A DNA stretch of 64,000 nucleotides, from positions 558,001 to 622,000 of the forward strand of contig NZ_CP033219.1 of NCBI RefSeq assembly GCF_004006175.1, given 5' to 3'. The notes under the pieces are model-generated. The model was not told the origin of the DNA and made no database searches. It saw only the letters and a list, made by a program, of their open reading frames with translations. The position numbers and the translations under genes are program-made. Of the stretch, positions 3,637-24,969 are shown piece after piece. This stretch comes from Parasedimentitalea marina. Its GTDB lineage: Bacteria; Pseudomonadota; Alphaproteobacteria; Rhodobacterales; Rhodobacteraceae. The first letter of the stretch is position 1. The number at the start of each line of letters is the position of its first letter.

Positions 3637-3711
3637 GCCCGGGTAGCTCAGGGGTAGAGCAGTGGATTGAAAATCCTCGTGTCGGTGGTTCGATTCCGCC
3701 CCTGGGCACCA
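3637..3711 (+). tRNA. tRNA-Phe (anticodon GAA), island integration site
   Basis: Acceptor GCCCGGG (3637-3643) pairs with CCTGGGC (3701-3707); the D arm is GCTC/GAGC; the anticodon loop TTGAAAA (3667-3673) contains GAA; the T arm is GGTGG-TTCGATT-CCGCC; and an encoded CCA ends at 3711. The anticodon stem GTGGA/TCCTC has one T-T mismatch. The last 16 nt plus two following bases recur at 29822-29839, so the island boundary keeps the tRNA intact. Confidence 0.93.
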
Positions 3712-7855: not shown

Positions 7856-10174
7856 ATGAGCAAGCCAACTGCGAGAGAACTAATCGAGGAGGAGCTTCAG
7901 AAGGAGACTCCTGACTGGCGATTGGTTGAAAGCTTAAGTCGTGAGGAGGTTTCACAGGACGAGGAAAACGTACGGTTTTCCGTCGATGCGGGACATATCC
8001 AACGCCTAGGGGTTGAGCTGGTGGGGAAGAAAGATACCGCCTTGTCTGAATTGATCAAAAACGCCTTTGACGCAGATGCAACGGAGGTAAACCTGAATTT
8101 TAAGAAGAGCCAAGCTAAGGGTGGTACTCTAATCATTTCAGATAATGGATCTGGAATGTCGCTTGAAACCATTCGCAACAGCTGGATGCGAATTTCTACT
8201 GACAGCAAGGCTGAAACCCCTTTTTCACCCAAATACCAACGACGTCGAGCCGGTCGCAAGGGGATAGGCCGTTTTGCTGTGCAAAGGCTCGCGAAGAGGC
8301 TTGAGTTTAGTACTTATCCCGAAGGAGATTCGAAGGGCTATCTGGTTACATTCAACTGGGACGAAGAATTTCGCCCAGGACTGGATTTGAATGAAGTGTT
8401 TAACCAAGTTCATGTCATTCCAAACGCCGAAGGCCGAAGTGGTACTGAACTCAAAATGATTTCGCTACGGGACGCATGGACGCCTCCGGCAATTTCAAAG
8501 GTGTGGAAAACGGTTCTCCTTCTCCAGCCTCCATTCCAGATCGCTAGCATTTCCGGGATAGCCGACGGCAAGAAAGGTGATCCTGGGTTCAAAGTTCGAG
8601 TAGACGGTAAAGAAGATGATCAGAGCGTGGAGTTCTTTTCCATTGAAAACTCTTTCCTTAGTCAGGCTGTTGCAGATATCGAAGCGAGGATTGACGAAGA
8701 CGGGAATGCTAGCGTTCGGGTGAAGTCAAAAAAGCTCGACCTTGATGACACCCAAGATTTTGATGAAAAATTCTCATTGGTAGGCGCTCTCACTCTCACT
8801 TCAAAATACTTCATTTATCATTCTAGCATTTTGTCAGGAATGACTCAGAAAAATGCGACAAGCATGGGGCATAGATATGGAGGCATCAGGGTCTACAAAA
8901 ATGGATTTCGTGTGCTCCCTTACGGTGAACCATCAGACGATTGGATGGGAATGGATTCAGCAGCGGGTCGCCGTGAGTTCTTGGCACCTGGTAACAACAG
9001 TAATTTTTTCGGACAAGTTTTTGTAGGCGACGACGACAACCCACTCCTTGAAGAAACTGCTAGCCGTGAAGGGCTCCAGGAAAACGAAGCCTTTGAAGAG
9101 CTGCAAACTTTTGCAAAACAAGCTCTTGTCTGGGCAATTACACGAGTAGCGGCCCATCGGGGAAGAAAACAGACATCTTCTCAACCAGGCTTTATTTCCA
9201 AGATACGCCCTCCCTCTGAATCTATTCAGGATGCTATCGAGGTCTTTGAAAAACGCGTTGCGACGAAGAATAAAGAGACCAAGCAGAAGGATACTAATAA
9301 CATCAAAGGCGACGTAGCAGACAAGTCGTCTGAGCAAGATGCTCTCGTAGTTCTAAAGTCAGTGCAACATGACGTGCTGGAAGCCGAAGAAGAGTGGGAA
9401 CGCGAACGTCAGGCATTCTTGCAGTATGAGGCAATGCTTCGGCTACTTGCATCTTTAGGGCTCTCGATCAGTGTATTCGGACACGAAATCAAAGGTTCTC
9501 GCGAAGCAATCAGAGCACGTCTAAAACTAATTGAAGACGAGATAAGTTACTTGGCGGAAAGTGAAGAAAAAACGGAGTTAGAGCAAGAACTCGAACAGTT
9601 AAATTCCGCTACTCAACGTTTGTTTGACATTGGCGGATACATTTCTGGTCTAATGTCAAAAACAGAAAGTCGAGAACTGACGGAACTATCAGTCCAAGGG
9701 TCACTTGAGCGTTTTAAGAAGCAATTCGCCATATATATGGCAAGGCAAAAAATTGAATTTGCTCCCATCGTTACCTCACCTTCGAACCTTCGCACCTGTG
9801 AGATGCATGCCAGTGAACTGGACACAGTGCTCCTGAACTTTCTGACCAATTCCATAAAATCTATGAAGAAGGCAAAAACTTTTAAACGCCGCATTCGAAT
9901 GGACGCCAGGAAGGAAGCTCGGCACATCGTCATTGGCTTCGAAGACAATGGTTTTGGTATCCCTGAGGAACAAAAAAACCTCATTTTCGATGCGTTTTTT
10001 ACGACTACACTGACGGCGGAAGAAGACGAATTAGCTGGTCCGGGCACCGGGTTGGGTCTAAAAATCGTCTCCGACATAGCTCAAAGTTATGGTGGAAACG
10101 TATCTGTGGTGGAGCCGAGCGAAGGATACAACTGCCGCATTGAATTTAGAATTTTGAACAGCGAGGCTGAATAA
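7856..10174 (+). CDS. Double-GHKL ATPase: MORC/Hsp90-like module fused to a histidine-kinase-like module
   Basis: A 772-residue soluble protein with two ATP-binding GHKL domains. N-terminal (residues 40-170): N-box SELIKNAFDADA, G1 ISDNGSGM and G2 GRKGIGRFAV, of the MutL/Hsp90/MORC type. After a charged helical linker (430-520) comes an H-box-like SVFGHEIKGSREAI (about residue 545) and a C-terminal histidine-kinase ATPase with N-box LLNFLTNSI, G1 EDNGFGIP, F-box FDAFFTT and G2 GPGTGLGLKIV. No transmembrane segment. The stop overlaps the start of a receiver-domain gene by 1 nt, so a phosphorelay between them is likely. I infer a cytoplasmic sensor in a defence or stress operon; the trigger is unknown. 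Confidence 0.82.
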   Translation: MSKPTARELIEEELQKETPDWRLVESLSREEVSQDEENVRFSVDAGHIQRLGVELVGKKDTALSELIKNAFDADATEVNLNFKKSQAKGGTLIISDNGSGMSLETIRNSWMRISTDSKAETPFSPKYQRRRAGRKGIGRFAVQRLAKRLEFSTYPEGDSKGYLVTFNWDEEFRPGLDLNEVFNQVHVIPNAEGRSGTELKMISLRDAWTPPAISKVWKTVLLLQPPFQIASISGIADGKKGDPGFKVRVDGKEDDQSVEFFSIENSFLSQAVADIEARIDEDGNASVRVKSKKLDLDDTQDFDEKFSLVGALTLTSKYFIYHSSILSGMTQKNATSMGHRYGGIRVYKNGFRVLPYGEPSDDWMGMDSAAGRREFLAPGNNSNFFGQVFVGDDDNPLLEETASREGLQENEAFEELQTFAKQALVWAITRVAAHRGRKQTSSQPGFISKIRPPSESIQDAIEVFEKRVATKNKETKQKDTNNIKGDVADKSSEQDALVVLKSVQHDVLEAEEEWERERQAFLQYEAMLRLLASLGLSISVFGHEIKGSREAIRARLKLIEDEISYLAESEEKTELEQELEQLNSATQRLFDIGGYISGLMSKTESRELTELSVQGSLERFKKQFAIYMARQKIEFAPIVTSPSNLRTCEMHASELDTVLLNFLTNSIKSMKKAKTFKRRIRMDARKEARHIVIGFEDNGFGIPEEQKNLIFDAFFTTTLTAEEDELAGPGTGLGLKIVSDIAQSYGGNVSVVEPSEGYNCRIEFRILNSEAE

Positions 10175-11274
10175 TGAGCTTTTCAGGTTTCTTCATCGAC
10201 GATAACGAGACAGAAAACGTTTACGCCAAAACGATGTCTACCAAAGGGGCGCTTAAGCTTGCGTATGAGGCCCCAGAACAGGTTAGCCGCCACGCGAAGT
10301 CCGTTTTCGCGCGAAAGCCGGATTTGTTGGTCCTGGACTTCCGGCTGGACGAAGATAGCGATTTAGACCCTAATGAAACATATAAGGGAAGCGTTTTGGC
10401 GCAGCAGGTTCGTGACTGCTCTACAGCTACGCCCGAACACGATTTCCCAATTGTACTAGTTTCTTCAGAAGACAAAATCCGGGAGCAATTTGCCCCTGAT
10501 CTCACCTCACACGACCTATTTGACAAGGTATATTCAAAGGAAGAGGTCAATGATCGAAGGGACGAAATTCGCGTTGAACTTTTGAGTTTGTGTGATGGAT
10601 ATCAAATATTGCGGAGGAGTGTTGGATCATATGATTTGTTTAAACTCACAAAGCTTGATGCAGAAGAAGACTATATACTTGATCATCAAGAGTTAGAGCT
10701 TGCAATTCGTCGAGCGTCAGCTCCGCACCAGATTGCTTCTATATTTCTGAATCAACTGATTGGACAAACCGGCCTTTTGTTAGATGTGGACGAGGCTTGC
10801 GCGCGGCTCGGCGTCGCTCAGAGCGAGCGAGATGAGGTCGAAATTTATCTAGACGAATGTGGAGCAAGATATAGTGGACTGTTTTCAAATGGTTGGCCCA
10901 GATTTTGGGCCCACAGATTAGATCAAATTTCTGGCGAAGTTTTTGGCCAAAGAGCTACTGGTGTTCCTGCGGACCAGCGCGCGGCCAAGCTCTCCGAAGT
11001 TTTGAAGCGCGAGCTGCAACCCGCCAAGTCACCCTGGACTGGAAAGAATGACGCTTTAATTGCGTTTGCATGTGCCTGTTGTTCCGATGGAACGGAGTTG
11101 CGACATTCAGTTGGAGTTTTTGAAACGAATATGCCGAGTTTTTCTGTTCGTCGCCGTGTTTGCTGGCGATGCATTCATACCGATAGGTATTTGAATAGTC
11201 AGCCTAGTTTTGAAATCGATGCATCGGACAAACGTTTAGTTGGCGAAGTAAAGACACTTCAGATCCCCGGATAA
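10174..11274 (+). CDS. Receiver-domain protein with unknown Cys-rich C-terminal region
   Basis: The first about 130 of 366 residues form a response-regulator receiver domain: acidic pair in FFIDDNETEN, phosphoacceptor Asp in LLVLDFRLDED, Ser in IVLVSSEDK and Lys in LFDKVYSK. The remaining 230 residues match no output domain I know; they contain CACC near residue 290 and CWRC near 330, a possible metal site. There is no helix-turn-helix I can recognise, so the output is probably not transcription. It is coupled to the double-GHKL gene (1-nt overlap) and followed after 5 nt by another unknown gene. Partner of the kinase by context; effector activity inferred only. Confidence 0.75.
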   Translation: MSFSGFFIDDNETENVYAKTMSTKGALKLAYEAPEQVSRHAKSVFARKPDLLVLDFRLDEDSDLDPNETYKGSVLAQQVRDCSTATPEHDFPIVLVSSEDKIREQFAPDLTSHDLFDKVYSKEEVNDRRDEIRVELLSLCDGYQILRRSVGSYDLFKLTKLDAEEDYILDHQELELAIRRASAPHQIASIFLNQLIGQTGLLLDVDEACARLGVAQSERDEVEIYLDECGARYSGLFSNGWPRFWAHRLDQISGEVFGQRATGVPADQRAAKLSEVLKRELQPAKSPWTGKNDALIAFACACCSDGTELRHSVGVFETNMPSFSVRRRVCWRCIHTDRYLNSQPSFEIDASDKRLVGEVKTLQIPG

Positions 11275-11279
11275 AACTC

Positions 11280-11969
11280 ATGACGGATATTAAGGCTGAA
11301 GCCGCGGGTGAAGCTTTGAAAGCTATTGCTCAAAAATTAGATGATACTGGAGTAATTGCACCTGAAGGTCGCAGCACCCTTCTGAGGGTTGCTAGTGAAC
11401 TAAAGGGAAAGAAACGGAGTAAACAGTGGCCTCAGGAAGTGGACCGTGGTTCTCCGGTTCGGTTTAATGTGGGGAAAACCGCTGACAACAAGCCAGTTCG
11501 CCCAATAATTGATTTTGCAAAAATACATGTAAATCAAAATCATAAATCGCGCCCTCCCTTCGATTGTTTTGATTTGGCAATCGTTTTGGAAAGTGACACA
11601 GGTGATCTGCTATCACGATGGCACATCGATCAAGCAAATAGCGAAGGTGGCTCTTACCAGGCGGGACCTCTATTTCACCTTCAGTTCGGGGGCCGGAACA
11701 ACGGCTATGACCGCTCGGTTGATCATCCGATTAAGGAACCAAGATGGTGCCATCCACCAATGGACCTAGCTCTTTCAACTGAGATGATTGTTGCCAACTT
11801 CTTTGAAGACGCTTGGCACGGCCTTCGGGAAGATCCCAGCTGGTGTCTTAATATAGGTTTGTTTCAGAAGCTCTGCTATGAAGCATACTTGGAACACCTG
11901 CAAAAATGTATAAGCGCGCCTAGAGGCTCTACTATCTTGAATGATGTTTGGGCCGCCAACTGGAAATAA
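11280..11969 (+). CDS. Hypothetical protein, third gene of the GHKL/receiver operon
   Basis: A 229-residue protein that starts 5 nt after the receiver gene. The first 60 residues are helical and basic (LKGKKRSKQWP); the rest contains DCFDLAIVLESDTGDLLSRWHID and a Trp/His-rich stretch PRWCHPPMDLAL, EMIVANFFEDAWHGL. No signal peptide or membrane segment. I do not recognise a family. Position in a tight three-gene operon with a kinase-like protein and a receiver points to a shared role, perhaps effector or target recognition. It ends 16 nt from the convergent methyltransferase gene. Confidence 0.7.
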   Translation: MTDIKAEAAGEALKAIAQKLDDTGVIAPEGRSTLLRVASELKGKKRSKQWPQEVDRGSPVRFNVGKTADNKPVRPIIDFAKIHVNQNHKSRPPFDCFDLAIVLESDTGDLLSRWHIDQANSEGGSYQAGPLFHLQFGGRNNGYDRSVDHPIKEPRWCHPPMDLALSTEMIVANFFEDAWHGLREDPSWCLNIGLFQKLCYEAYLEHLQKCISAPRGSTILNDVWAANWK

Positions 11970-11985
11970 ACCACGCTGGAATAAG

Positions 11986-13656
11986 TCAGCGTTGCCTGTT
12001 TTGCCGAAGCTGAGCCAGACCGGATTTCAAAATGGCAGCCTGGGTGGGAGCACAATCAACATCAAGCGACTCCAGAATAACATGGTCGGCTACTTGGGTT
12101 GCTTCATTGAAATCGCCAGCTCTCAGGAATGCATCCGCTCTTCGAAAAGCTGAACTGATTTTGGTGTGATGTATCGGTGGCAACAATAGTCCGATGGCCT
12201 CAGCCTCACGTGGTTCATGTTTTAGCGCGCCCGAGCCATAAGAGCGCCCTGCGATTTCAGCAGATATTTGGGAGAATGTGGACAAGGAGGCCAAAGAAAT
12301 AAACTTTTTTCTGGTTTCCGAAACGTCTTGAATGAAATAACCACGATGGATCGAGTTGGTGCAGTTCAAGCCCGCTGTGTTCAAGACAACACGCGGTCCG
12401 TTATGCTGCATGACTGGAAAGAACAAGTCAGGTATCGCCCCATCATCAGTTTGAGACCATGACGACCTTTTTTTGAAGGTCGAACATTTAGCTTTGGCAT
12501 CCTCAGGATAGGAGGCCAAGTATTCTCCAATTTTTTGTGGTGCATTTTCCATGCTCTTTGCACTGACAAGGAATGTTTTTGCCGCATTTTCACGCATCAC
12601 ATCGACATCATTAAGCGTAAGGTGAGAGCCTTTTACAAATGAGAACCTAGGAAGGATATCAACGAGGTCTCGGGTACTGATACCCGCTTCTTGCCTCTCA
12701 TCATCAGTTCTCAGGAAAAATCTGTTATTTCCTGTAACCAGCCCGATTTGAATTCTTACATATTCCCCTAAAGTGTGGTGATGCTTGCTAGCTTTGAGTT
12801 GTTCGAAGAGTTCCAGCGGTGCGCGTGAAAGACAATCAAGAACGGCAGACCCACAAGAGGACGTTCCGCTGCTAGAACCATCCTTCCATTTTTGGATCTC
12901 ATCAGCCAAGTCGCGAACTCCTGCGCAACGGGCTAGCTGAATGTCCCCAACAAGATTATCTGATGCCTTGGAGCGCTTTCCTTCAGCGAGAACAACAATT
13001 GTTTTTTCTTCCGTCCCTTCAAGTAAAAACTGTCGCTCTTGCATTTCAAATGCGCGAACGTCTTCAAAGCTATTATAAATGAATTTTCTTAACGATTGCG
13101 AATAATTGGCGTAAAGAAAGCTGCTTGGCAGGACCCAAGCCATTCGTCCCCCCTCGGTTATGAATCGTGATGAAAGCCCAACAAAGTAGGCCCAAAGGCT
13201 TGCACGGCGACCAAGGTCAAGCCCTTCATCACGCAAGTATGCCAAAGCAATTTCGCGTACTGATGGATGAATTTTTTGATAAGATAAATAGGGAGGATTT
13301 CCAATGACCGCATCGAAGCTACCCAGCCACGAACGTGGGAATTCTTGGAGCAAGAAATCTCCCTGGTGAAACCGTTCTAAGTCGATAGGGCGCTCAAGTA
13401 GGTCAGCCAAGAAACCGAACGCCTCTGGGTCGATGTCACAACCAAAAATCTGCTCAGTTGCTGCACTTCCTTCGAAGTCGGTGAACCGATCATGAGCGGA
13501 ACGCAAAAATCCACACCCGCCAAAGCTCGGTTCAAAAACACGACAATTGCTTGATCGAATTGCCCACTCGCATATGATATCGGTAAGGCCCTTGTGGGTA
13601 TAATATGCCCCAAGCTCCTTTTTCCGATCATTGGCTCTTTTTTGCAAGGTGTTCAT
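11986..13656 (-). CDS. N6-adenine-type DNA methyltransferase (Eco57I/Type IIG-like), no nuclease domain seen
   Basis: A 556-residue protein with methyltransferase motifs: RKKELGAYYTHKGLTDII near the N-terminus, SAM-binding VFEPSFGGCGFL, and the catalytic NPPY in VIGNPPYLSYQK. The C-terminal half resembles a target-recognition region (LGEYVRIQIGLVTGNNRFF). The protein is shorter than full Type IIG fusions and I see no PD-(D/E)XK motif, so it is either an orphan modification enzyme or works with an island nuclease. It is convergent with the GHKL operon. A methylation mark protecting the island or phage defence is inferred. Confidence 0.85.
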   Translation of the reverse strand: MNTLQKRANDRKKELGAYYTHKGLTDIICEWAIRSSNCRVFEPSFGGCGFLRSAHDRFTDFEGSAATEQIFGCDIDPEAFGFLADLLERPIDLERFHQGDFLLQEFPRSWLGSFDAVIGNPPYLSYQKIHPSVREIALAYLRDEGLDLGRRASLWAYFVGLSSRFITEGGRMAWVLPSSFLYANYSQSLRKFIYNSFEDVRAFEMQERQFLLEGTEEKTIVVLAEGKRSKASDNLVGDIQLARCAGVRDLADEIQKWKDGSSSGTSSCGSAVLDCLSRAPLELFEQLKASKHHHTLGEYVRIQIGLVTGNNRFFLRTDDERQEAGISTRDLVDILPRFSFVKGSHLTLNDVDVMRENAAKTFLVSAKSMENAPQKIGEYLASYPEDAKAKCSTFKKRSSWSQTDDGAIPDLFFPVMQHNGPRVVLNTAGLNCTNSIHRGYFIQDVSETRKKFISLASLSTFSQISAEIAGRSYGSGALKHEPREAEAIGLLLPPIHHTKISSAFRRADAFLRAGDFNEATQVADHVILESLDVDCAPTQAAILKSGLAQLRQNRQR

Positions 13657-13934: not shown

Positions 13935-14996
13935 TTAATGAAACAACGGCACTTGGTCTAACCGATGCAATTCATCGATCAGCCTAACAGCCATACGAAT
14001 ACTATTCCCCATCTGATATTGCCTCGCGCAGCACATCAGCTGTTGTACGTTCCTCACAACGCACTCAGACATGCCACGTTTCAGAACTTCTCTTTTGATA
14101 AACTCTGTCATCTGCTTATCGGTCGGTGGAACGATGTAAACAGTACGAACACGTGTCCTCAATGGTTCCGGCAAGCGGCTAGCATCGTTGCAACTCATAA
14201 TCCAATTGATGTGGCTCATATCAAAAGTCGTCTGAAAAAACGGACAAGTCCAACTTTCCGCAGAGATGGGTTCCAACAGCCCCAATAGAGCATGGTGTAG
14301 CGAAGTACTTAAGCCGCTTGTACTTTCTGCAACACCGGCCTTGTCGATCTCGTCAATACAAACGATGGGGTTTGCCACTGCTCTTGAGAGCATGACTTTA
14401 AGGGGGCGCCCACATTCTGCTGATCCCCAACCCCTGCCCACGCCGGACAATGGAAACCCCTCAGAGCCACTACCTCCATCAATCTGAACTGTTGGCAGCT
14501 TACATAGTTCTGACAACCGCTTAATCAGGTGCGATTTCCCCAAACCTGGAGGGCTTTGCAATAAGGTTGGCCGGAACTTCAAGCCAGTGCCACCTTGCTG
14601 GATGTGGTGCCTCATATCCAGCCACAAGGTATGGATCACCGATTGAAGCCATGGCATTTCCTCAAACAATTTGGCTGCGATTTCATCTACCTCATGAACT
14701 GACTTCGGCCCCTCTAAGGTAACCCCTTCCATGATTGGCTTAAGAAGTTTTCGCTCATCCCGCTTCAGGTGCCCTCCTTGATCGAACCGTGATCGGGCTT
14801 TGATAAGCTGGTCGGCCCGACGCGAAATTTTGGCTCGGTCATCTAGGAAGACCCGATGTCGTGAATAGCTTTCGTCACCATCTGGCAACCCTGTCGACCT
14901 GAGTGTTCTAAGGTGTTCGATCAAGTGATCTTCAATTTGAGAGTCATCAATTCTGAAGAGCCGTAACTCTTTCAGCAAGGGAATACGCTGAGCCAT
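13935..14996 (-). CDS. Lon-like AAA+ ATPase without protease domain
   Basis: A 353-residue protein with Walker A SPPGLGKSHL, Walker B VCIDEIDKAG, sensor-1 IMSCNDASRLP and an arginine-finger stretch LRTRVRTVYIVP, all close to the ATPase module of Lon. There is no Lon Ser-Lys proteolytic domain and no long N-domain; the first 100 residues are helical and charged. It lies 206 bp downstream of, and on the same strand as, the HUH-type replication protein. Roles as a remodelling ATPase or replication helper are possible. AAA+ membership is certain, job unknown. Confidence 0.85.
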   Translation of the reverse strand: MAQRIPLLKELRLFRIDDSQIEDHLIEHLRTLRSTGLPDGDESYSRHRVFLDDRAKISRRADQLIKARSRFDQGGHLKRDERKLLKPIMEGVTLEGPKSVHEVDEIAAKLFEEMPWLQSVIHTLWLDMRHHIQQGGTGLKFRPTLLQSPPGLGKSHLIKRLSELCKLPTVQIDGGSGSEGFPLSGVGRGWGSAECGRPLKVMLSRAVANPIVCIDEIDKAGVAESTSGLSTSLHHALLGLLEPISAESWTCPFFQTTFDMSHINWIMSCNDASRLPEPLRTRVRTVYIVPPTDKQMTEFIKREVLKRGMSECVVRNVQQLMCCARQYQMGNSIRMAVRLIDELHRLDQVPLFH

Positions 14997-17506: not shown

Positions 17507-17908
17507 ATGTTCCTTGGACTACAAGAGGTCTCGCGAGCCTTTTTTTCAAAGCCGGAGCAAAATGATGCCCACACTCAGCATGCTATCGACATTCTGAAAA
17601 CCGCCAAGGACCAACCGCTGAGATTTTTTGGTAGAGATGAGACTGATGCTATCGAAACAGCTGTGCGGATTTTGGCGGAACATGGAACAGAATTAGGGGG
17701 AGAGGAAAGACTGAAAGTGGTCACAGCGTTGAAGGAGATGGATGACGTGCGTCGGCTCAGACAGCGGGTGGTAGTGCAAGTGGCCATTACAATTGTATTG
17801 TTGGCATTTTCTCTCACTGTTGCTTTTGGTGCGATCTCAGCCTCAGACCAACTCCAGAAATTATCCTTCGGTTTAATCGGAACGGTTGTGGGCTTTTGGT
17901 TAAAGTAG
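17507..17908 (+). CDS. Small membrane protein paired with an M48 protease
   Basis: 133 residues: a soluble, charged N-terminal 90 residues, then one clear transmembrane segment (VVVQVAITIVLLAFSLTVAF) and a short C-terminal hydrophobic hairpin ending GLIGTVVGFWLK. GGAGG at about 17493-17497 precedes the ATG. The next gene, an M48-like membrane protease, starts inside its last codons (17896), so the two are probably made together and may form a membrane complex. No family recognised. Confidence 0.7.
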   Translation: MFLGLQEVSRAFFSKPEQNDAHTQHAIDILKTAKDQPLRFFGRDETDAIETAVRILAEHGTELGGEERLKVVTALKEMDDVRRLRQRVVVQVAITIVLLAFSLTVAFGAISASDQLQKLSFGLIGTVVGFWLK

Positions 17909-20163
17909 CTCGCGTACCGCCGTCTATTCAATCGGCATCCAGCTTGTTGCTGGTCTCGTTAGCAATGCTGGTTGCATCGGTATTTTTGTTTCTAACTCCC
18001 TATGAATCCATTTTGAGCTGGTGGTCTCAGGGAGAAAATTTTGACAGGAAACTCGAAACTGCGTTGGAGATGTTTTCTCCTGTTATTGCATGGGTATTGT
18101 TCACCTTGCATCGCAGGTTCTCCGACCGACGCCAACGCAGAGTTCTCCATGGTTGCCATCCAATCCCCTGGACACAGATTGGCGAATGGCCTCTTCTAGA
18201 TGAAAACTTCCATGACACCCGTGCTCGACTATTGGTTCTCGGCACTATTGCTCGAATTCGAGATCCGGGTGGGCCTGTGCTGGCTTCGCCCTTTGCTTGG
18301 GTGCCGACACGCTGGAATGAGCCACCCGCCATTATTTTTCCCGCTCTTGCTTGGAGCCGCCTTAGTTCGAACGTTGGCGCACTGGCAGCAGTAACTGCTC
18401 ATGAACTTGGGCATATAGTGAATCGTGACACGCGTTGGATAGTGAATTTGGAACTTGCGCTAAAGTGCAGCTTGTTAACAGCAGCAGCTCTGGTGCTTAA
18501 AGGCTTTCTAATTTCCGGCTACGTCGACCTAAGAAATGGCGAGGGATTTTTTGCCGTTATTCAGGCCAATGTTGCGGGTAAATCCTCCGGTTTCGCTCTG
18601 CTAGTGATAGTTGTTTTGGGTGTCTGGTTGGTACGAATTAGTCAGTCGCATCGCGAGTACATGGCTGATCAGTTTGCCATCTACGCAGTTGGATTAGAGC
18701 ACCTCAACGCAGCGGAGATCCTTCTTGGGGGGGCTGACGAAATACATGCACGGCGCCATTGGCGATCCTGGACCGTCGATAGAACGTTGATGTCTTTTCC
18801 GATGCTGATTGCATTTGGCGCAGTGTGCTCGGTGCTAGCGGCGTACCTAATCAGCCCATTCGCATATCTTTGCCAGGTAACATTGAGTGAATCCCTACAA
18901 TGCAGTTCAAACGCGCTCGCATCCTCGATCCAATCGACTGTCGCATATGTGGCACTGCTACTGTTATTGATGTCAGCTACCACATCTTCGAAATCCGCCG
19001 AAGGTCAAGCACCGAGTTTATTGTCCATGTTCATCATCGGTTGGGTGGCTGGGTTTCTGGTGAGCCAGTCCATTCCGCTCAGCCTTTCTGCGCTCCCAAT
19101 CTTCGACGACTTCACAAACGTCCATCGCCATGAACCTGCCGCACTGTTTCTTGGGACGACGATGGATCGGTTAGCGGTGATAACAACCGCTACACTGGTG
19201 GCCTTTCCAATTGTGTGCATCTGGCGCGCCAAGGGGCGAATGACGCTATTGGCCCCAATTGGATTTGTGATTGTTACCCTCGGTTACTGGGAACCAATTG
19301 TTCCCAATAGCCCCACACTTGGCATGCTGGCTCCGCTAGTTGTCACAGTTGTCTTTCTTGCGGCTTTGTTTTTCTTTGGACATCCGAGCTTGAAATTCAG
19401 TTCGCAGAAAGCGGTGCTAACACTTATTGCAGTATTAACAATCGGGTCTTGGATTGGTCTGGGCGGACCGTCATCACCGGCAATTGGGTTTCAACATTCT
19501 GCATGGCGGTACTTGGATCAAGGTGACCTCGTGCGTGGGTTATCAAGAATGGAGACTGCAGCGCACTTAGCTCCCTTTAGCCCTAGCGGATGGCAAACAC
19601 TGGCAGAAACACGTTACAGCCAAGGCGGAAACCCAGCTGAGATCATTGCGGCATCAACTCGCGCATATCAGGCGCCGTATTTGAGTGATTGGGGGGAGAT
19701 TGCACGAATTGAGGCCTTCGCAGGTGCCGTCAGACTTGAGTTCAGTAAGTCTGACGAAGATCTATTTGATGCCAGGCAACTCCTCTTTTCAGCTCTTGAG
19801 AAGTGGCGCTTGAACGCCAGAATCTCAGACGACATCGGCGTCCTTGCACTCTACAATCTAGCAGCACTCGAAATGCGACTTGGACAGTCGCGATTGCTCG
19901 CCCTTTCACAGCTCTTTGAAGCCTCGTCGATGCAACCTGACATCGCCTCAATTGCGATTGAGGATCCCGATTTTTCCGAGCTGAATATCGCTGGGGCTCC
20001 CAATCCGGATTTAAATTTCACTCGACAGTTCATGACTGACCAGGCGGATCTCAACGCCATCTTGCAGAAGGCAACCAATTCGAGTTTCTTTGAGGAGCAG
20101 GCAATCTTGGTGGTAACACTTGCACTACGCTGCCGTGCTGCTGAAACACTCGACAGTTCATGA
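17896..20163 (+). CDS. Membrane-embedded M48-family metalloprotease with TPR-like C-terminus
   Basis: A 755-residue protein. Two N-terminal transmembrane segments are followed by the zinc motif TAHELGHIVNRD (about residue 168) and the third-ligand motif HREYMADQFA (about 252), as in HtpX/Ste24-type proteases. Several more hydrophobic segments (300-530) precede a helical-repeat region (YLDQGDLVRGLSRMETAAHLAP…) that looks like TPR. Start TTG at 17896, overlapping the small membrane gene by 13 nt. A 128-bp tandem duplication has replaced the natural C-terminus: the frame now ends in ETLDSS, while the second copy would continue ETNLNLRCETQ to a stop at about 20304. Substrate unknown. Confidence 0.82.
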   Translation: MVKVARVPPSIQSASSLLLVSLAMLVASVFLFLTPYESILSWWSQGENFDRKLETALEMFSPVIAWVLFTLHRRFSDRRQRRVLHGCHPIPWTQIGEWPLLDENFHDTRARLLVLGTIARIRDPGGPVLASPFAWVPTRWNEPPAIIFPALAWSRLSSNVGALAAVTAHELGHIVNRDTRWIVNLELALKCSLLTAAALVLKGFLISGYVDLRNGEGFFAVIQANVAGKSSGFALLVIVVLGVWLVRISQSHREYMADQFAIYAVGLEHLNAAEILLGGADEIHARRHWRSWTVDRTLMSFPMLIAFGAVCSVLAAYLISPFAYLCQVTLSESLQCSSNALASSIQSTVAYVALLLLLMSATTSSKSAEGQAPSLLSMFIIGWVAGFLVSQSIPLSLSALPIFDDFTNVHRHEPAALFLGTTMDRLAVITTATLVAFPIVCIWRAKGRMTLLAPIGFVIVTLGYWEPIVPNSPTLGMLAPLVVTVVFLAALFFFGHPSLKFSSQKAVLTLIAVLTIGSWIGLGGPSSPAIGFQHSAWRYLDQGDLVRGLSRMETAAHLAPFSPSGWQTLAETRYSQGGNPAEIIAASTRAYQAPYLSDWGEIARIEAFAGAVRLEFSKSDEDLFDARQLLFSALEKWRLNARISDDIGVLALYNLAALEMRLGQSRLLALSQLFEASSMQPDIASIAIEDPDFSELNIAGAPNPDLNFTRQFMTDQADLNAILQKATNSSFFEEQAILVVTLALRCRAAETLDSS

Positions 20164-20276
20164 CTGACCAGGCGGATCTCAACGCCATCTTGCAGAAGGC
20201 AACCAATTCGAGTTTCTTTGAGGAGCAGGCAATCTTGGTGGTAACACTTGCACTACGCTGCCGTGCTGCTGAAACA
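20019..20276 (+). repeat. Perfect 128-bp tandem duplication at the 3' end of the M48 gene
   Basis: The segment starting CACTCGACAGTTCATGACTG at 20019 recurs at 20147 with no mismatch that I can find, through GAAACA at 20276 (period 128). Because 128 is not a multiple of 3, the protease frame hits TGA at 20161-20163. The perfect identity implies a recent event, or an assembly artefact. Confidence 0.92.
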
Positions 20277-20766: not shown

Positions 20767-22218
20767 CTAACCCTTCATTTTGTCGCATAGGCTTTGCACG
20801 GCCGAAGCCACCGAATATGCAGGTGCGCGAATGCGTCTGAGCGCACGGGACAGCCCATGTTTTCCTTCCCCAGGACTGGTCTCGGCCTCGAATCTTGCGG
20901 TTTCGCCGATCTGCATGACTTTCTGATGCGTCAGGACTAGGTTCAGAATATTTTGCTCAAGCCCGCTAAGACTCTGGCCCTCCCGCATTTCTTTGGCCCG
21001 CGCCAACAGCTCGTCTGCGCCGATGCTCAACAGATTGTTGAACAGCGCCTCGGAATCGCGCAGCGACAGGCGGACCGGTCCCTGCGTTGGTTCGTCGGGT
21101 AGACGATGCAATAGCCAAGGCGCGCTGCTCGCCACGTTATGTGCGATCTGCCCTGGCACGCTGGCCGGATGGATTAGGCTGGCACGGGCGCGGGTTGCGC
21201 GCACCATGAAGTCCCAACTGGCCAAGAACATCGGCGGCCGGCTCAGCTCAAATGACCGCCCATAGCCTGAAGTACGCAACCCAAGCTCCAGCGCTTCGAG
21301 GTCCGGATGATCAACAGTCATGCATTTAAGGTTGCACAGAACCGTATCCAGCAGTTCATAGTTTCTCTTGGGTCGCCTCATCAACAAATGCGCTACTGCA
21401 AAACCCAGCATCGGGTTCTTGAATTTCTCGTCCAAGAAACTGTTGATCACCTCGCGCGACACGACGTTGCGCCCTTGGCTGATCGCGTGTTTCGCAAGCT
21501 CGCCTAGCCTGAGATTGGGGTTGTAAGGATCAAATCCCTCGTGGGTTCGCGCCATGAAGATCGAGGATCGGCGCAGCGACACCGCCGTGACGCGTTCGTT
21601 GTTGCGCTCAAAAACGTCGGGGGTCAGGAACACCTGGGTCTGCCAACCATCACATAAGCTGACGAACATTTCATAGGTGCCCAGCACAGGATTGACGACC
21701 CTCACCCGGTAGGTCCCCGGTGGCAGGGCTCGCGTCAGCCCCGCGCAGCGCGCTGCTTCATCCCACATCCCCTCGTTCAATCCAGCAATCAGCTCGCCCG
21801 CCAAGTCCAGTACCTGAACCTCCACCGGTTCGATTTGTCGCTCCTCGTCCTCTTGGCGAAGGAACAAGAACAAGCTGCAATACGGGACGCCCTGCATATG
21901 GGACCATTCCTGCGCTCGGTTCAGTTGAGCCACATTGGCGGTCGCCGTATAGGCCAGGGGCGCAGCGGACCGAAAGGCTATGGGTTCGGCGTGCACGGCA
22001 TGGCGTTCTGTCTCACCGGTGACTTCGATCAACTCATCCACCTGCGTTGCGGCCGACCGATAGCGTAGCTTATAGAACCCCGGTGCCACATCATGCCCGA
22101 GCCACCCCACCCCCTTGGCAATACGCCGCAGTCGCCCGTCAATCAGGAAGATCTCGGTCGCCGCATCAGCCGCGTTGACCTCAAGCGTCACCAAATTTGA
22201 GTTCGATGATGATTGCAT
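20767..22218 (-). CDS. Unknown protein, third gene of the hydrolase-caspase operon
   Basis: A 483-residue protein. The first 220 residues look beta-rich, with two similar sandwich-like units: EIFLIDGRLRRIAKG…GHDVAPGFYKLRYR and VEVQVLDLAGELIAGLN…LPPGTYRVRVVNP, recalling PEGA or carrier-type domains. The rest is helical (GELAKHAISQGRNVVSREVINSFL). No signal peptide or membrane segment. Its start lies 38 nt inside the caspase-like gene, so co-translation is nearly certain. Not recognised. By context it may be the sensor, scaffold or substrate of the peptidase. Confidence 0.75.
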   Translation of the reverse strand: MQSSSNSNLVTLEVNAADAATEIFLIDGRLRRIAKGVGWLGHDVAPGFYKLRYRSAATQVDELIEVTGETERHAVHAEPIAFRSAAPLAYTATANVAQLNRAQEWSHMQGVPYCSLFLFLRQEDEERQIEPVEVQVLDLAGELIAGLNEGMWDEAARCAGLTRALPPGTYRVRVVNPVLGTYEMFVSLCDGWQTQVFLTPDVFERNNERVTAVSLRRSSIFMARTHEGFDPYNPNLRLGELAKHAISQGRNVVSREVINSFLDEKFKNPMLGFAVAHLLMRRPKRNYELLDTVLCNLKCMTVDHPDLEALELGLRTSGYGRSFELSRPPMFLASWDFMVRATRARASLIHPASVPGQIAHNVASSAPWLLHRLPDEPTQGPVRLSLRDSEALFNNLLSIGADELLARAKEMREGQSLSGLEQNILNLVLTHQKVMQIGETARFEAETSPGEGKHGLSRALRRIRAPAYSVASAVQSLCDKMKG

Positions 22219-23215
22219 CGCCTCGTACCTCGATTAGATCATTTTCTTCGGTTTCAAGAATCAGTACCTTGTAGAACTCTGGTTCGATCCGCAGCCCAAA
22301 CTTCAGCTCGACAATAGTGTGGCGGATGACCTCCACCCCGCCAAAGCTCTCGAAGATCAACGTTTGCCCGAGGTATTGGTCCCGTATCTGAAACATCGTC
22401 TCGGGCCCAACGGCTTCTGCAGCTTCGCGCTGCAGAAACAGCACCTCTTTGTCGCTATCAACTTTAATCGTCGGAGCGGTAACCACAAGGTCACCTGCAA
22501 CTTCACCAAAAATATTGTGGACGCGATCTTTAATGATACTGCCGGTGACGCGGCCCAGCCGGTTCGGGGTCGCGCTTTCAAGCGCGGCGATCATTGTTTT
22601 AGTGAAAACCCCGTGCGCAACCCCGTCAAACTTCCTTTCGCGCGCTGCGCTACCGAAACCGGTGGCATAGCCATAGAACATCTTGACCTTGTTCGTGTTC
22701 GCATGCGCCTGAAGTTCGGGCAGAGGGGGGGAACTGATCCGCTGAAAGGGCAGGTTCGTTCGGCAGGCGTCAAAGATCAGGAAAATCTCGTTAAAGGTCC
22801 ATAGGCGGCGAAAATAGCTCGCATAGAGCTCGACAGCCACATGGGTATGAAACTCGTCTGTGGCGTCCGCCGCATAAAGCGCCGCCGAGTCCATGTCTTG
22901 CGGATCGGCGAACCCGTGCCCCGCCACAAATAGGAACAGCCGTCCGTCGATGTGCTCTCCATGGGCCGCGCGCGTGCTGAGCGGGCGAAACAGCCTCTCG
23001 ATTTCTGATTGAAGTGGATGGGCGTCCTCCAACCCATCCGGTGGATCAAACTCCGACGAAAGACACATCTTCACATTGGCCGGGTCCAAGCTGCCGCCCG
23101 CCGGATTGATCAGCCATTCGCGGAACAACTGGGCGTCGTTGCACGGCCCCTGCAGGTCCGAAATTCCGGGATAACGGTCGATGCCAATGACAATCGCGTG
23201 GTCCGGCACCGTCAA
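22181..23215 (-). CDS. Caspase-like (peptidase C14) protein
   Basis: The 344-residue protein starts HAIVIGIDRYPGISDLQGPCNDA, the standard first strand of prokaryotic caspases, followed by the catalytic His in FLFVAGHGFAD and the catalytic Cys in IFLIFDACRTNLP. The about 90 C-terminal residues after the protease fold are beta-rich and unassigned. The start is a TTG overlapping the hydrolase stop (TTGA at 23212-23215). Bacterial caspase homologues act in regulated self-killing and antiphage systems. Its place in a three-gene operon within a tRNA island suggests that kind of role here. The family call is strong; the function is inference. Confidence 0.86.
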   Translation of the reverse strand: MTVPDHAIVIGIDRYPGISDLQGPCNDAQLFREWLINPAGGSLDPANVKMCLSSEFDPPDGLEDAHPLQSEIERLFRPLSTRAAHGEHIDGRLFLFVAGHGFADPQDMDSAALYAADATDEFHTHVAVELYASYFRRLWTFNEIFLIFDACRTNLPFQRISSPPLPELQAHANTNKVKMFYGYATGFGSAARERKFDGVAHGVFTKTMIAALESATPNRLGRVTGSIIKDRVHNIFGEVAGDLVVTAPTIKVDSDKEVLFLQREAAEAVGPETMFQIRDQYLGQTLIFESFGGVEVIRHTIVELKFGLRIEPEFYKVLILETEENDLIEVRGDAIIIELKFGDA

Positions 23216-24705
23216 AACCCGTGTTTCAGGATATGTTTCAGGCTCGTCAGCGTAGTTTCATCATTGTCGAAATCCCCGTGGCATAGCGATTGTGAATTCA
23301 GTCCCGGCCCCGCCCCCGTCGTCACCGACCAGACAACGCTGTGTTCGATGCTTACCAGGTGGTTGCGCAGCGATGCCACCTTGGGAAACTCGTCGTCCGG
23401 AAAAGCCTCTGTCTCATAAAACCGCTGCATCCCCACCAAGGGCGCGTCCGGTTCGAATTCGACTACCCCCGAAACGAAATAGAGCAAAGAATGCGGATAG
23501 AGGAACTTCACCAGAACATCCTCTTGCTCGTTCTCGTCGGTCATGGTGAAAATCCGGAAATTCCGCATCTGGCCACCGTGATTCTGGAACGCCGTTGCGG
23601 CCAGATCAAAGGTAACCGCAGGAGCCAGAAAGACGACGTCAAAATTAAACCCTTGGGGCCTGATTTCATCGGCTTTTTCCAACATGTGCGCAATATAGAC
23701 CGCGCCGGTGCTGTGCCCGACCAGCGTGATACGTAAGTCGGGGTCAGCCTCCATCAGGTCGTTCAGAACGGTCAGAACAGCGGTCCCACCGTGACGTTCC
23801 GGGTTGTCGCCAAAACTGTCCGCCGTGTCCTGTTTCATGTGTTTCCACACGAGGCCACCCACGTTCGCCACGTAAAATTCGCGCAGGATCTCTTCGACCA
23901 CCGTCGCATGCAGCCCGTGAGCCCGTCCGTCCAGCGCCCGGCTAATACAGCGTTTAGCCACGGCGATCACCGCTTTGGCGACCCGGATCACCGAAAGGAC
24001 GCCGCGCGACGCGGGGTCTGGGCGGTCCACCATGCGCTCGATACTGCCGGGGTCCATCAGGGTTTCGGCCGAACCACGTACCGAATTGGCCGACCGGGAA
24101 CTGAGCTCATTGGCGATATCGTCGGCGTCGCGCAGACCATTTGTAACCTCGCCTACCGCCCGGCGCAGCGTGAAATCGCGATTCAGCTCTTCTCGCAGCT
24201 GCAACTCTTCCAGTGGTGTCAACTGCGCAAGCCCCGAGACATCCACAATATCGGACAACAGCTCGCCGCTCGCATCTTCGCCAACCGCCAGCGCATCCAA
24301 GGCTTCTTCCAGCTTAGCCTCTACGCCGCTGAGGTTCACATTGGGAAGCGCCCCCGTCGCGCGATCTCCGTCGGTCTGGGTCAGTTTACGCGCCAGAATA
24401 CCCGTGACGCGTTTGACCACTGTGCGGAAAATCAATTCCTTCGCGATCTGACCAAGATTGTTCTGGATCGTTTCAAGCAGACCCGCCTCCCAGACAAAGA
24501 AAACTGGATAGGCGTCGCCTTCATCATATTGACGAGTCAGAAACTCGGCGATGTCGCGCCCGCGCGCTTCGGATACAAGACCGCCGTGAAAATGCAGCAC
24601 GATGTTCTTGCTTGCCGCGGCTTGGGCTAGGATTTCGTCGACCTTCGATTTCGGGGTGTCGGACTGAAGTTCACCGTTCGCGAGGTGGATAATGTGATTA
24701 GACAA
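23212..24705 (-). CDS. Alpha/beta-hydrolase, first gene of the caspase operon
   Basis: A protein of about 497 residues. The oxyanion-hole type strand is NIVLHFHGGLVSEARG and the nucleophile elbow is RITLVGHSTGAVYIAHML (GHSTG Ser), with later FNFDVVFLAPAVTFD. Residues 85-300 are a helical insert of unknown role. The frame is open to 24768, but the TTG at 24705 has AGGAG at 24713-24717 exactly 7 nt before it and gives the clean start SNHIIHLANGE. It is a serine hydrolase, possibly a lipase or esterase, translationally coupled to the caspase gene. Confidence 0.82.
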   Translation of the reverse strand: MSNHIIHLANGELQSDTPKSKVDEILAQAAASKNIVLHFHGGLVSEARGRDIAEFLTRQYDEGDAYPVFFVWEAGLLETIQNNLGQIAKELIFRTVVKRVTGILARKLTQTDGDRATGALPNVNLSGVEAKLEEALDALAVGEDASGELLSDIVDVSGLAQLTPLEELQLREELNRDFTLRRAVGEVTNGLRDADDIANELSSRSANSVRGSAETLMDPGSIERMVDRPDPASRGVLSVIRVAKAVIAVAKRCISRALDGRAHGLHATVVEEILREFYVANVGGLVWKHMKQDTADSFGDNPERHGGTAVLTVLNDLMEADPDLRITLVGHSTGAVYIAHMLEKADEIRPQGFNFDVVFLAPAVTFDLAATAFQNHGGQMRNFRIFTMTDENEQEDVLVKFLYPHSLLYFVSGVVEFEPDAPLVGMQRFYETEAFPDDEFPKVASLRNHLVSIEHSVVWSVTTGAGPGLNSQSLCHGDFDNDETTLTSLKHILKHGF

Positions 24706-24969
24706 TGGGCTTCTCCTAATGCGGAAAATTATAATTTCCAATTCTACCAAAGCTTGAATGTTTGTCAAAATTTGAATAGCGGGACAAGTGCTCTCAGCGA
24801 CGTTGGTGGAGTTCTATTCAGGGGGGCAACAGGGGCAAATCCCATGAGCGATATAGTCTCACGAACTGGAGCGAACTCTTGTGCACACACTGATTTAGCT
24901 CGATCAATGGGTCGTAGGCGGTAAATGTTGTGCTTTGCTAATTGCTACCGGACCATGTCGACCTATGCC

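Follow-up and report, generated by a model that had tools for sequence, protein, structure and literature searches.

A widespread three-gene cassette of a lipase-type hydrolase, a caspase-like peptidase and an adaptor-like protein, probably a self-destruct immune system

The closest precedents for the locus described here are the Canu system and the hydrolase-caspase pairing of the VMAP systems; as tested, the locus belongs to neither. In Canu (KaeCanABC), a caspase activates a nuclease (available text of PMC12799240). According to the same text, Canu resembles our locus in having three genes and a MALT1-like caspase, and it occurs in defence islands. The Canu caspase has an Ig-like fold at its C terminus and is in a complex with a second protein, and insertions with conserved glycines where cutting is proposed gate the hydrolytic proenzyme; our locus may share these features. 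However, its effector is an MBL-fold nuclease encoded downstream of the caspase gene, whereas here an alpha/beta-hydrolase with a GHSTG motif is encoded upstream. In HamMAB and Avs1, a pro-hydrolase loses its gating loop to a protease encoded beside it, much as proposed here, but the protease is trypsin-like, the hydrolase is an MBL nuclease and the sensors are different (same text of PMC12799240). In the vWA-MoxR ternary systems (VMAP), the caspase is always accompanied by a neighbouring alpha/beta-hydrolase gene, joint operation has been suggested, and effector cargo varies, as at our loci (available part of Kaur et al. 2020, PMC7159879). Finally, caspase homologues joined to an amidase, and once to an amidase and a lipase, in one protein (Asplund-Samuelsson et al. 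2012, PMC3501461) resemble far relatives of our system (L069, L073, L081); these cases are single proteins, in contrast to the trio, and the available part of that paper reports no third protein or R234-G235 loop.

The window analysed is a 64,000-nucleotide stretch of the Parasedimentitalea marina genome (contig NZ_CP033219.1, positions 558,001 to 622,000). It contains three open reading frames on the minus strand (Table 1), with the coordinates given by a first-pass annotation of this DNA; the hydrolase and caspase genes overlap by 4 nt, the caspase and third genes by 38 nt. The caspase frame encodes 344 aa from a TTG, or 342 aa from a GTG two codons downstream. The promoter-like site upstream of the operon is weak evidence by itself, because the scanned region contains fewer such sites (1) than expected from shuffled sequences (2.1).

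Table 1. Features of the trio locus, in window coordinates.
Feature	Position	Strand	Remarks
Sigma70-like promoter	24741..24768	-	TTGACA-16-TAGAAT with TG extension; upstream of operon; 11/12 consensus positions
Gene 1, lipase-type alpha/beta-hydrolase	23212..24705	-	497 aa; TTG start; SD AGGAG
R234-G235 codons (predicted site of cleavage by caspase)	24001..24006	-	loop 226-238 of helical insert
Gene 2, caspase-like peptidase (C14)	22181..23215	-	His100, Asp149, Cys151
C-terminal beta domain of caspase	22211..22405	-	hhalign to N-terminal beta domain of third protein
Gene 3, adaptor-like protein	20767..22218	-	483 aa; a pair of beta-sandwich domains followed by helices
Beta-sandwich 1 of gene 3	21976..22197	-	residues 8-81; transthyretin/CnaB-like
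Helical part of gene 3	20770..21531	-	about residues 230-483; variable cargo after it in some other loci

The product of gene 1 matches the DUF900 alpha/beta-hydrolase family of Pfam (E 3.1e-5, 24 bits, cut-off 20.5), and the GHSTG motif noted in the first-pass annotation was confirmed. The protein has HGG at 40-42 and, in the canonical order of the alpha/beta-hydrolase superfamily, a nucleophile elbow with Ser332 followed by Asp390 and His476. S332 and H476 are invariant in the 57 aligned sequences; D390, kept in 53 of the 57, is not. These column counts omit duplicates or partial copies (L001, L005, L028, L029, L067, L087, L095, L098) and hydrolases matching over less than 330 residues. Foldseek by itself gave no hydrolase match at E 0.001 or better. 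In the structure model, the hydrolase fold carries a long helical insert, which may gate the active site as in Canu. Far relatives contain the same hydrolase together with a caspase, or with a papain, in one chain.

The caspase assignment of gene 2 was borne out by a match to Peptidase_C14 (PF00656; E 2e-10, 41.2 bits, cut-off 21.4) and by H100 and C151, which are the same in all 57 sequences aligned from a set of 58 loci; the fold match and the His/Cys dyad of family C14 are thus both present. Asp149, two residues before Cys151, is also invariant (57/57), which we take to be a MALT1-like feature of enzymes with basic P1 specificity. MALT1 proteins were the best matches among PDB sequences, although weak ones (E 0.046). 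The C-terminal beta domain of the caspase is homologous to the one with which the third protein begins (hhalign probability 86.9, E 4.2e-6, 62 columns). The third-protein domain is modelled as transthyretin/CnaB-like, as compared with the Ig-like fold of Canu. The two-gene EACC1-caspase system was rejected as an assignment, the NCBIfam model caspase_w_EACC1 scoring 35.6 bits, under its cut-off of 140.

For the third protein, which the first-pass annotation could not place, searches of Pfam, PADLOC and NCBIfam up to E 1 gave nothing, and PDB sequences gave a single match (E 0.36). Its structure model has a mean pLDDT of 85.4, and Foldseek returned mostly beta-sandwich chains at low TM-score. 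At other loci it carries cargo: GroEL, EF-Ts, trypsin with NucA, trypsin with PLD, or pYEATS. The full GroEL is found in Bradyrhizobium cytisi and the core of EF-Ts, a protein that binds EF-Tu, in Variovorax sp. J22R24. A column survey (near-copies omitted for the caspase and the third protein) revealed no conserved [RK]-[GAS] pair in the third-protein family. The suggestion that the peptidase might cleave this protein is not supported; in appearance the protein is an adaptor and not a substrate.

The trio is a real and widespread three-gene cassette. Failure of the three genes to co-occur elsewhere had been named in advance as evidence against the proposal, and no such failure is seen. Of the 54 hydrolase loci that head the list from a scan across named genomes (L006-L059), 40 have hydrolase, caspase and third gene in this order, 9 have the caspase and the third gene fused, 2 are cut by contig ends and 3 lack both partners. 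The loci span 11 phyla. The fusions are mostly from one clade, and the caspase-less cases represent few independent events. Across 52 loci, with near-copies, L019 and L058 omitted, the pairwise distances for each of the three proteins are correlated with those for the other two (r 0.92, 0.89 and 0.86), and none of 500 shuffles, which do not correct for shared ancestry, was as high. Occurrence is sporadic: hydrolase matches were found in 4 of 195 genomes, that of P. marina included and three of them weak and partial, and in none of seven genomes of the same genus, while among 337 genomes of the class the third protein is found only in P. marina. Phage records contained no homologues of the third gene or the hydrolase.

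The first-pass annotation had placed the trio inside a tRNA island, which is borne out in part. The window does contain a tRNA-Phe (3637-3711), an IS3-type transposase, an integrase and, 7 kb from the trio, restriction-modification-like genes, but flanking attachment repeats were not found: neither the window nor the genome has the tRNA 3' end a second time. An all-against-all comparison of 232 flanking genes from 48 loci gave families common to up to 9 loci, actinobacterial with one exception; outside actinobacteria, no neighbouring family occurred in more than two loci. No constant fourth gene was found: in a Pfam census of neighbours (56 of 83 upstream and 52 of 83 downstream genes, plus 2 window genes; mostly genes on the strand of the trio, near-copies left out), the most frequent families are seen in 4 of 58 and 6 of 52. 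The M48 peptidase gene at 17896-20163 was rejected as a fourth member, being convergent on the opposite strand; M48 also does not appear in the upstream families listed (25 of 101).

The first-pass annotation knew of no described system with this gene set; the available parts of the papers do contain precedents, Kaur et al. 2020 for the pairing of hydrolase with caspase and Canu (2025) for pro-hydrolases that a caspase activates. The MBL-fold nuclease that characterizes Canu is missing, no protein of the trio matching an MBL family up to E 1. VMAP membership was rejected, the third protein having no VMAP-C (no Pfam match up to E 1); the domain was absent from all ten proteins checked, caspase-third fusions among them. 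Of 38 trio genomes, 6 do contain VMAP-C (5 over cut-off), though on contigs which, judged by their length, are not that of the trio, and the VMAP-C regions examined, 7 of 9, contained no trio-family hydrolase. No MoxR-specific or vWA family was found in 16 window proteins scanned. An AAA gene at 13935-14996 has a sub-cut-off AAA_5 match, and at other loci, among the families listed (25 of 101 and 25 of 59), AAA_5 appears in 2 of 58.

The alignments supply a specific candidate site for the proposed activation of the hydrolase by the peptidase. In all 56 alignable caspase-associated hydrolases, position 234 is [RK] and position 235 is [GAS], with G in 41 of them. Alignment entropy is 2.4-3.1 bits in columns 226-233 and 0.71 in column 234, and positions 234-235 are the sole strict [RK]-[GAS] column pair across the three protein families. 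The 120 homologues listed of 1048 found (that of the window included), counted irrespective of gene context, show R (109) or K (11) there, followed by G. By contrast, caspase-less hydrolases have L-G, S-A or P-G in the three alignable cases and nothing aligned in five. Two of these three are sisters in the tree, so the caspase-less hydrolases may never have had the site. From the conservation of the dipeptide together with the caspase, and from the invariant Asp two residues before the caspase Cys, we infer that the caspase cuts the hydrolase at R234-G235.

The reading that we favour, and consider somewhat probable, is a three-protein conflict cassette in which, upon a trigger, the caspase of a sensing unit unlocks a lipase-like proenzyme that stops the cell, probably as a self-destruct immune system. 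The hydrolase would be made as a restrained lipase- or phospholipase-like proenzyme with its long helical insert. Sensing and activation would fall to a unit of the third protein and the caspase, which share a homologous beta domain and form one polypeptide in some lineages. Upon a trigger, probably infection, the Arg/Lys-specific caspase would cut after R234 in the insert loop, and the unlocked hydrolase would attack the lipids of its own cell, or another ester, and thereby stop the cell. The sequences themselves show the genes, their catalytic residues, the gene order, the fusions and a conserved dipeptide that accompanies the caspase, whereas cleavage, activation, substrate, trigger and an anti-phage role are inferred. 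In favour of the reading are the gene order with its fusions, the distance correlation, the unique [RK]-[GAS] pair and its absence without caspase, the invariant Asp and the weak MALT1 matches. The hydrolase-protease chains of far relatives, the nearby restriction-modification-like genes and the sporadic occurrence argue in the same direction. The conflict-type character first proposed is supported as an appearance, and abortive infection may be its outcome. Counting against this reading are the ordered loop, the few caspase-less cases, the unaligned far class, the variation of D390 and the fixed place in Streptomyces.

A more tentative proposal makes the third protein a modular bait or cargo adaptor. 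In some lineages the bait would be a captured essential host protein (GroEL, EF-Ts), giving an integrated-decoy receptor wired to a caspase-activated lipase, similar to plant NLRs with integrated domains. Phage tampering with the chaperonin or translation factors would trip the attached caspase and unlock the pro-lipase, the system of the window being the form without cargo. It is rather unlikely that the [RK]-[GAS] pair serves the structure or an interface, with hydrolase and caspase acting as parallel effectors on the third-protein adaptor and no mutual cleavage. The dipeptide could be structural, since the model gives its loop, which has helices 219-225 and 239-258 on either side, as well ordered (pLDDT about 90, not disordered); varied cargo is expected of an effector platform, and the 12 far-class hydrolases kept have nothing aligned at the loop, though three are fused to caspases. 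However, exchange of R and K followed by G, A or S, in a loop otherwise variable, in length too, resembles a protease site more than a fold constraint, and hydrolases without a caspase lack the pair. We also think it unlikely that the trio serves a proteolysis-lipid pathway of housekeeping or development, such as envelope turnover or programmed lysis, instead of phage defence. Far relatives do carry Amidase_2 or peptidoglycan-binding domains, PADLOC models match the caspase alone, and in Streptomyces several neighbours recur in a neighbourhood common to different species, so the cassette there is inherited at a fixed place, not mobile. Elsewhere the distribution is patchy, some trios are on plasmids and one is on an IMG/VR contig (L086), and the cargo is typical of conflict systems (NucA with trypsin; compare the available part of PMC7159879). 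Quite improbably, the same cut would be an off-switch by which the caspase inactivates or turns over a constitutive enzyme that it guards: a conserved site implies that cutting matters and leaves its sign open, and the caspase-less hydrolases L049, L053 and L061 could be freely active, but the characterised protease-hydrolase pairs activate (Canu, HamMAB, Avs1; available text of PMC12799240).

For the caspase-unlocked proenzyme, R234 is one residue whose mutation would give a sharp test. Gasdermins are among the known cases of protease-activated bacterial immunity. If our reading is true, a lipase branch would join them and the nucleases (available text of PMC12799240), and the hydrolase-caspase pairing remarked on in 2020 would acquire a mechanism. 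The swappable cargo of the third protein (GroEL, EF-Ts) may offer a way to ask about integrated host-protein decoys in bacteria.

The window's trio consists of three overlapping genes. Gene 1, which has a TTG start with AGGAG just ahead of it, encodes a 497-residue alpha/beta-hydrolase. It overlaps by 4 nt with gene 2, coding for a caspase-like peptidase, which in turn overlaps by 38 nt with gene 3, whose 483-residue product gave no family match in family searches. Gene 1 is preceded by a sigma70-like site; shuffled sequence yields such sites no less often. The methyltransferase of the window's restriction-modification-like cluster matched a PADLOC model (E 8.9e-69), and the window's M48 peptidase gene has a perfect tandem duplication at its 3' end. 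In a genome of the same genus (G003), 47 bases of the tRNA-Phe 3' end are found again about 18 kb and 29 kb downstream, an arrangement as in tandem islands; a search of the window's own genome gave a single copy.

Coordinates of the features discussed (L, scanned loci; G003, same-genus genome)
Feature	Location	Strand	Description
Trio	window 24705-20767	minus	three overlapping genes
Restriction-modification-like cluster	window 7856-13656		double-HATPase protein partially matching REase_II, two genes of unknown function, type II N6 methyltransferase
M48 peptidase gene	window 17896-20163		128-bp duplication at 3' end, 20019-20274
tRNA-Phe 3' end and copies	G003 C1:2236133, 2254274, 2265567		
Hsp90 gene	L010:5697-7601		Mariprofundus
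NACHT-FGE-sulfatase gene	L022:14544-17465		Anaerolineae
Third protein	L039:5309-8815		Bradyrhizobium cytisi; C-terminal full-length GroEL (Cpn60; PF00118, E 1e-77)
Third protein	L059:12440-15049		Variovorax sp. J22R24; C-terminal EF-Ts core (PF00889, E 8.1e-44)
Third protein	L093:8294-12841		rhizobial plasmid; trypsin-like peptidase + PLD
Third protein	L094:8439-12197		rhizobial plasmid; trypsin-like peptidase + Endonuclease_NS
Third proteins	L109:8704-10683; L110:8769-10826		Rhizobium and Sinorhizobium plasmids; terminal pYEATS
Split caspase	L109:7717-8756		two overlapping ORFs
Split third protein	L058:12576-14222		two frames

The trio is real and widespread. Named genomes were scanned with a 31-sequence hydrolase alignment, and the best 80 of 104 loci were kept. 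Among the 54 listed first (L006-L059), 40 carried hydrolase, caspase and third gene in the same order and on the same strand, counting two in which the third gene runs past the contig end (L006, L019) and one in which it is divided between two overlapping frames (L058). Nine others had caspase and third protein fused (L027-L029 among them having identical coordinates and scores), two were cut by a contig end and three lacked both caspase and third gene. The remaining 26 loci (L060-L085) were without the trio except L072, where an Amidase_2-hydrolase protein is followed by one gene and then a caspase-third fusion. Caspase and third protein formed a single chain in ten loci; six of the fusions placed in our tree make up one clade, so that fusion there was probably a single event. 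The splitting of the L109 caspase and of the L058 third protein perhaps reflects frameshifts or errors in sequencing.

In the tree, the trio spans Pseudomonadota, Thermodesulfobacteriota, Acidobacteriota, Verrucomicrobiota, Calditrichota, Chlorobiota, Chloroflexota, Armatimonadota, Abditibacteriota, Actinomycetota and Bacteroidota. All three genes were present in each of the five plasmids fetched, all rhizobial, from 16 plasmid records matching the hydrolase. A complete trio also occurs on a contig classed as viral (L086, IMG/VR IMGVR_UViG_3300011630_000002). Despite this spread, the trio is rare inside any one group. The hydrolase matched 4 of 195 genomes including its own, three of these matches being weak and partial, and none of seven same-genus genomes. 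Third-protein matches in three groups numbered 5/296, 3/399 and 1/337 genomes, with the centre genome counted each time, four non-centre matches weak and few candidates scored per genome.

Distances of the three proteins correlate across 52 loci (r 0.86-0.92, uncorrected for shared ancestry), and outside actinobacteria no neighbour family recurred in more than two of the 48 loci compared; the three genes are therefore the unit. Streptomyces loci have several neighbour families in common, so that the cassette occupies a fixed place there. An Hsp90 gene and a NACHT-FGE-sulfatase gene lie near individual trios.

The eight far hydrolase relatives scanned are single chains joining hydrolase to peptidase: Amidase_2-hydrolase-caspase (L069, L073, L081), hydrolase-caspase (L077) or papain (C1)-hydrolase (L065, below cut-off, L074, L076 and L085). 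What all eight share is the pairing of hydrolase and peptidase.

The helical insert of the hydrolase contains a loop (residues 226-238) variable in length and sequence, with entropies of 2.4-3.1 bits at 226-233. Residue 234 is nevertheless Arg (45) or Lys (11), and residue 235 Gly (41), Ala (12) or Ser (3), in all 56 alignable caspase-associated hydrolases; the 57th, from L072, has nothing aligned there. [RK]G also stands at this position in the 120 homologues listed from a protein search, which were taken without regard to gene context. No second such pair was found in the hydrolase (columns at least 90% R/K examined), nor any in the caspase or third family (at least 85%). Eight near-class hydrolases lack a caspase. 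Five have nothing aligned at the site and three show L-G (L049), S-A (L053) and P-G (L061); since L053 and L061 group as sisters in the tree, these represent two events at most, and the three may always have lacked the site. Genes for a cytidylyltransferase and a Thy1 homologue lie downstream of L053, and a weak SprT match downstream of L055.

All 57 aligned caspases have Asp two residues ahead of the Cys, the arrangement of MALT1 and metacaspases for basic P1, human apoptotic caspases having Gln. MALT1 was also the best, though weak, match among solved sequences. On the basis of the conserved [RK]-[GAS] pair and this invariant Asp, we propose that the caspase would cleave the hydrolase after R234 in the insert loop. 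Against such a cut count the predicted order of the loop, the small number of caspase-less cases and the far relatives, in which no such loop aligned.

The predicted third-protein model (mean pLDDT 85.4) has two beta-sandwiches (about 8-81 and 115-205), the first transthyretin/CnaB-like, followed by helices. The C-terminal 60 residues of the caspase are homologous to this first sandwich (hhalign probability 86.9, E 4.2e-6). C-terminal cargo, sought in a few third proteins only, was diverse; the window's protein carries none. The GroEL and EF-Ts fusions both have frames without stops. Four other GroEL copies in the B. cytisi genome are 70-80% identical to the fused one, and the other EF-Ts of the Variovorax host is 54% identical to its fused counterpart. 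The third proteins of R. leguminosarum (L108, 576 aa) and R. gallicum (L094, 1252 aa) share 59.9% identity over residues 1-538, yet of the two only L094 carries the trypsin and nuclease domains: cargo is acquired or lost quickly.

Kaur et al. 2020 (PMC7159879) report that an alpha/beta-hydrolase gene always adjoins VMAPs with a caspase. Of 38 trio genomes, 6 had VMAP-C (5 of these over cut-off), on contigs whose length showed them to be other than the trio's, and no hydrolase of the trio's family lay in the 7 VMAP-C regions fetched of 9; one of these (L117) contains a caspase match. Excerpts of Asplund-Samuelsson 2012 (PMC3501461) record caspase-amidase and caspase-amidase-lipase proteins. The trio did not appear in the parts consulted of PMC8195603 or PMC13092281, and no description of it as a system was found in the open-licence PMC papers searched. 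The closest mechanism is that of Canu (PMC12799240), in which a caspase complexed with a second protein switches on an MBL nuclease that is gated and has conserved glycines. We regard the trio as a variant form of the protease-activated conflict systems, one whose proposed switch lends itself to a sharp test: cleavage would act on a hydrolase with putative lipase activity, and the whole may serve in defence.
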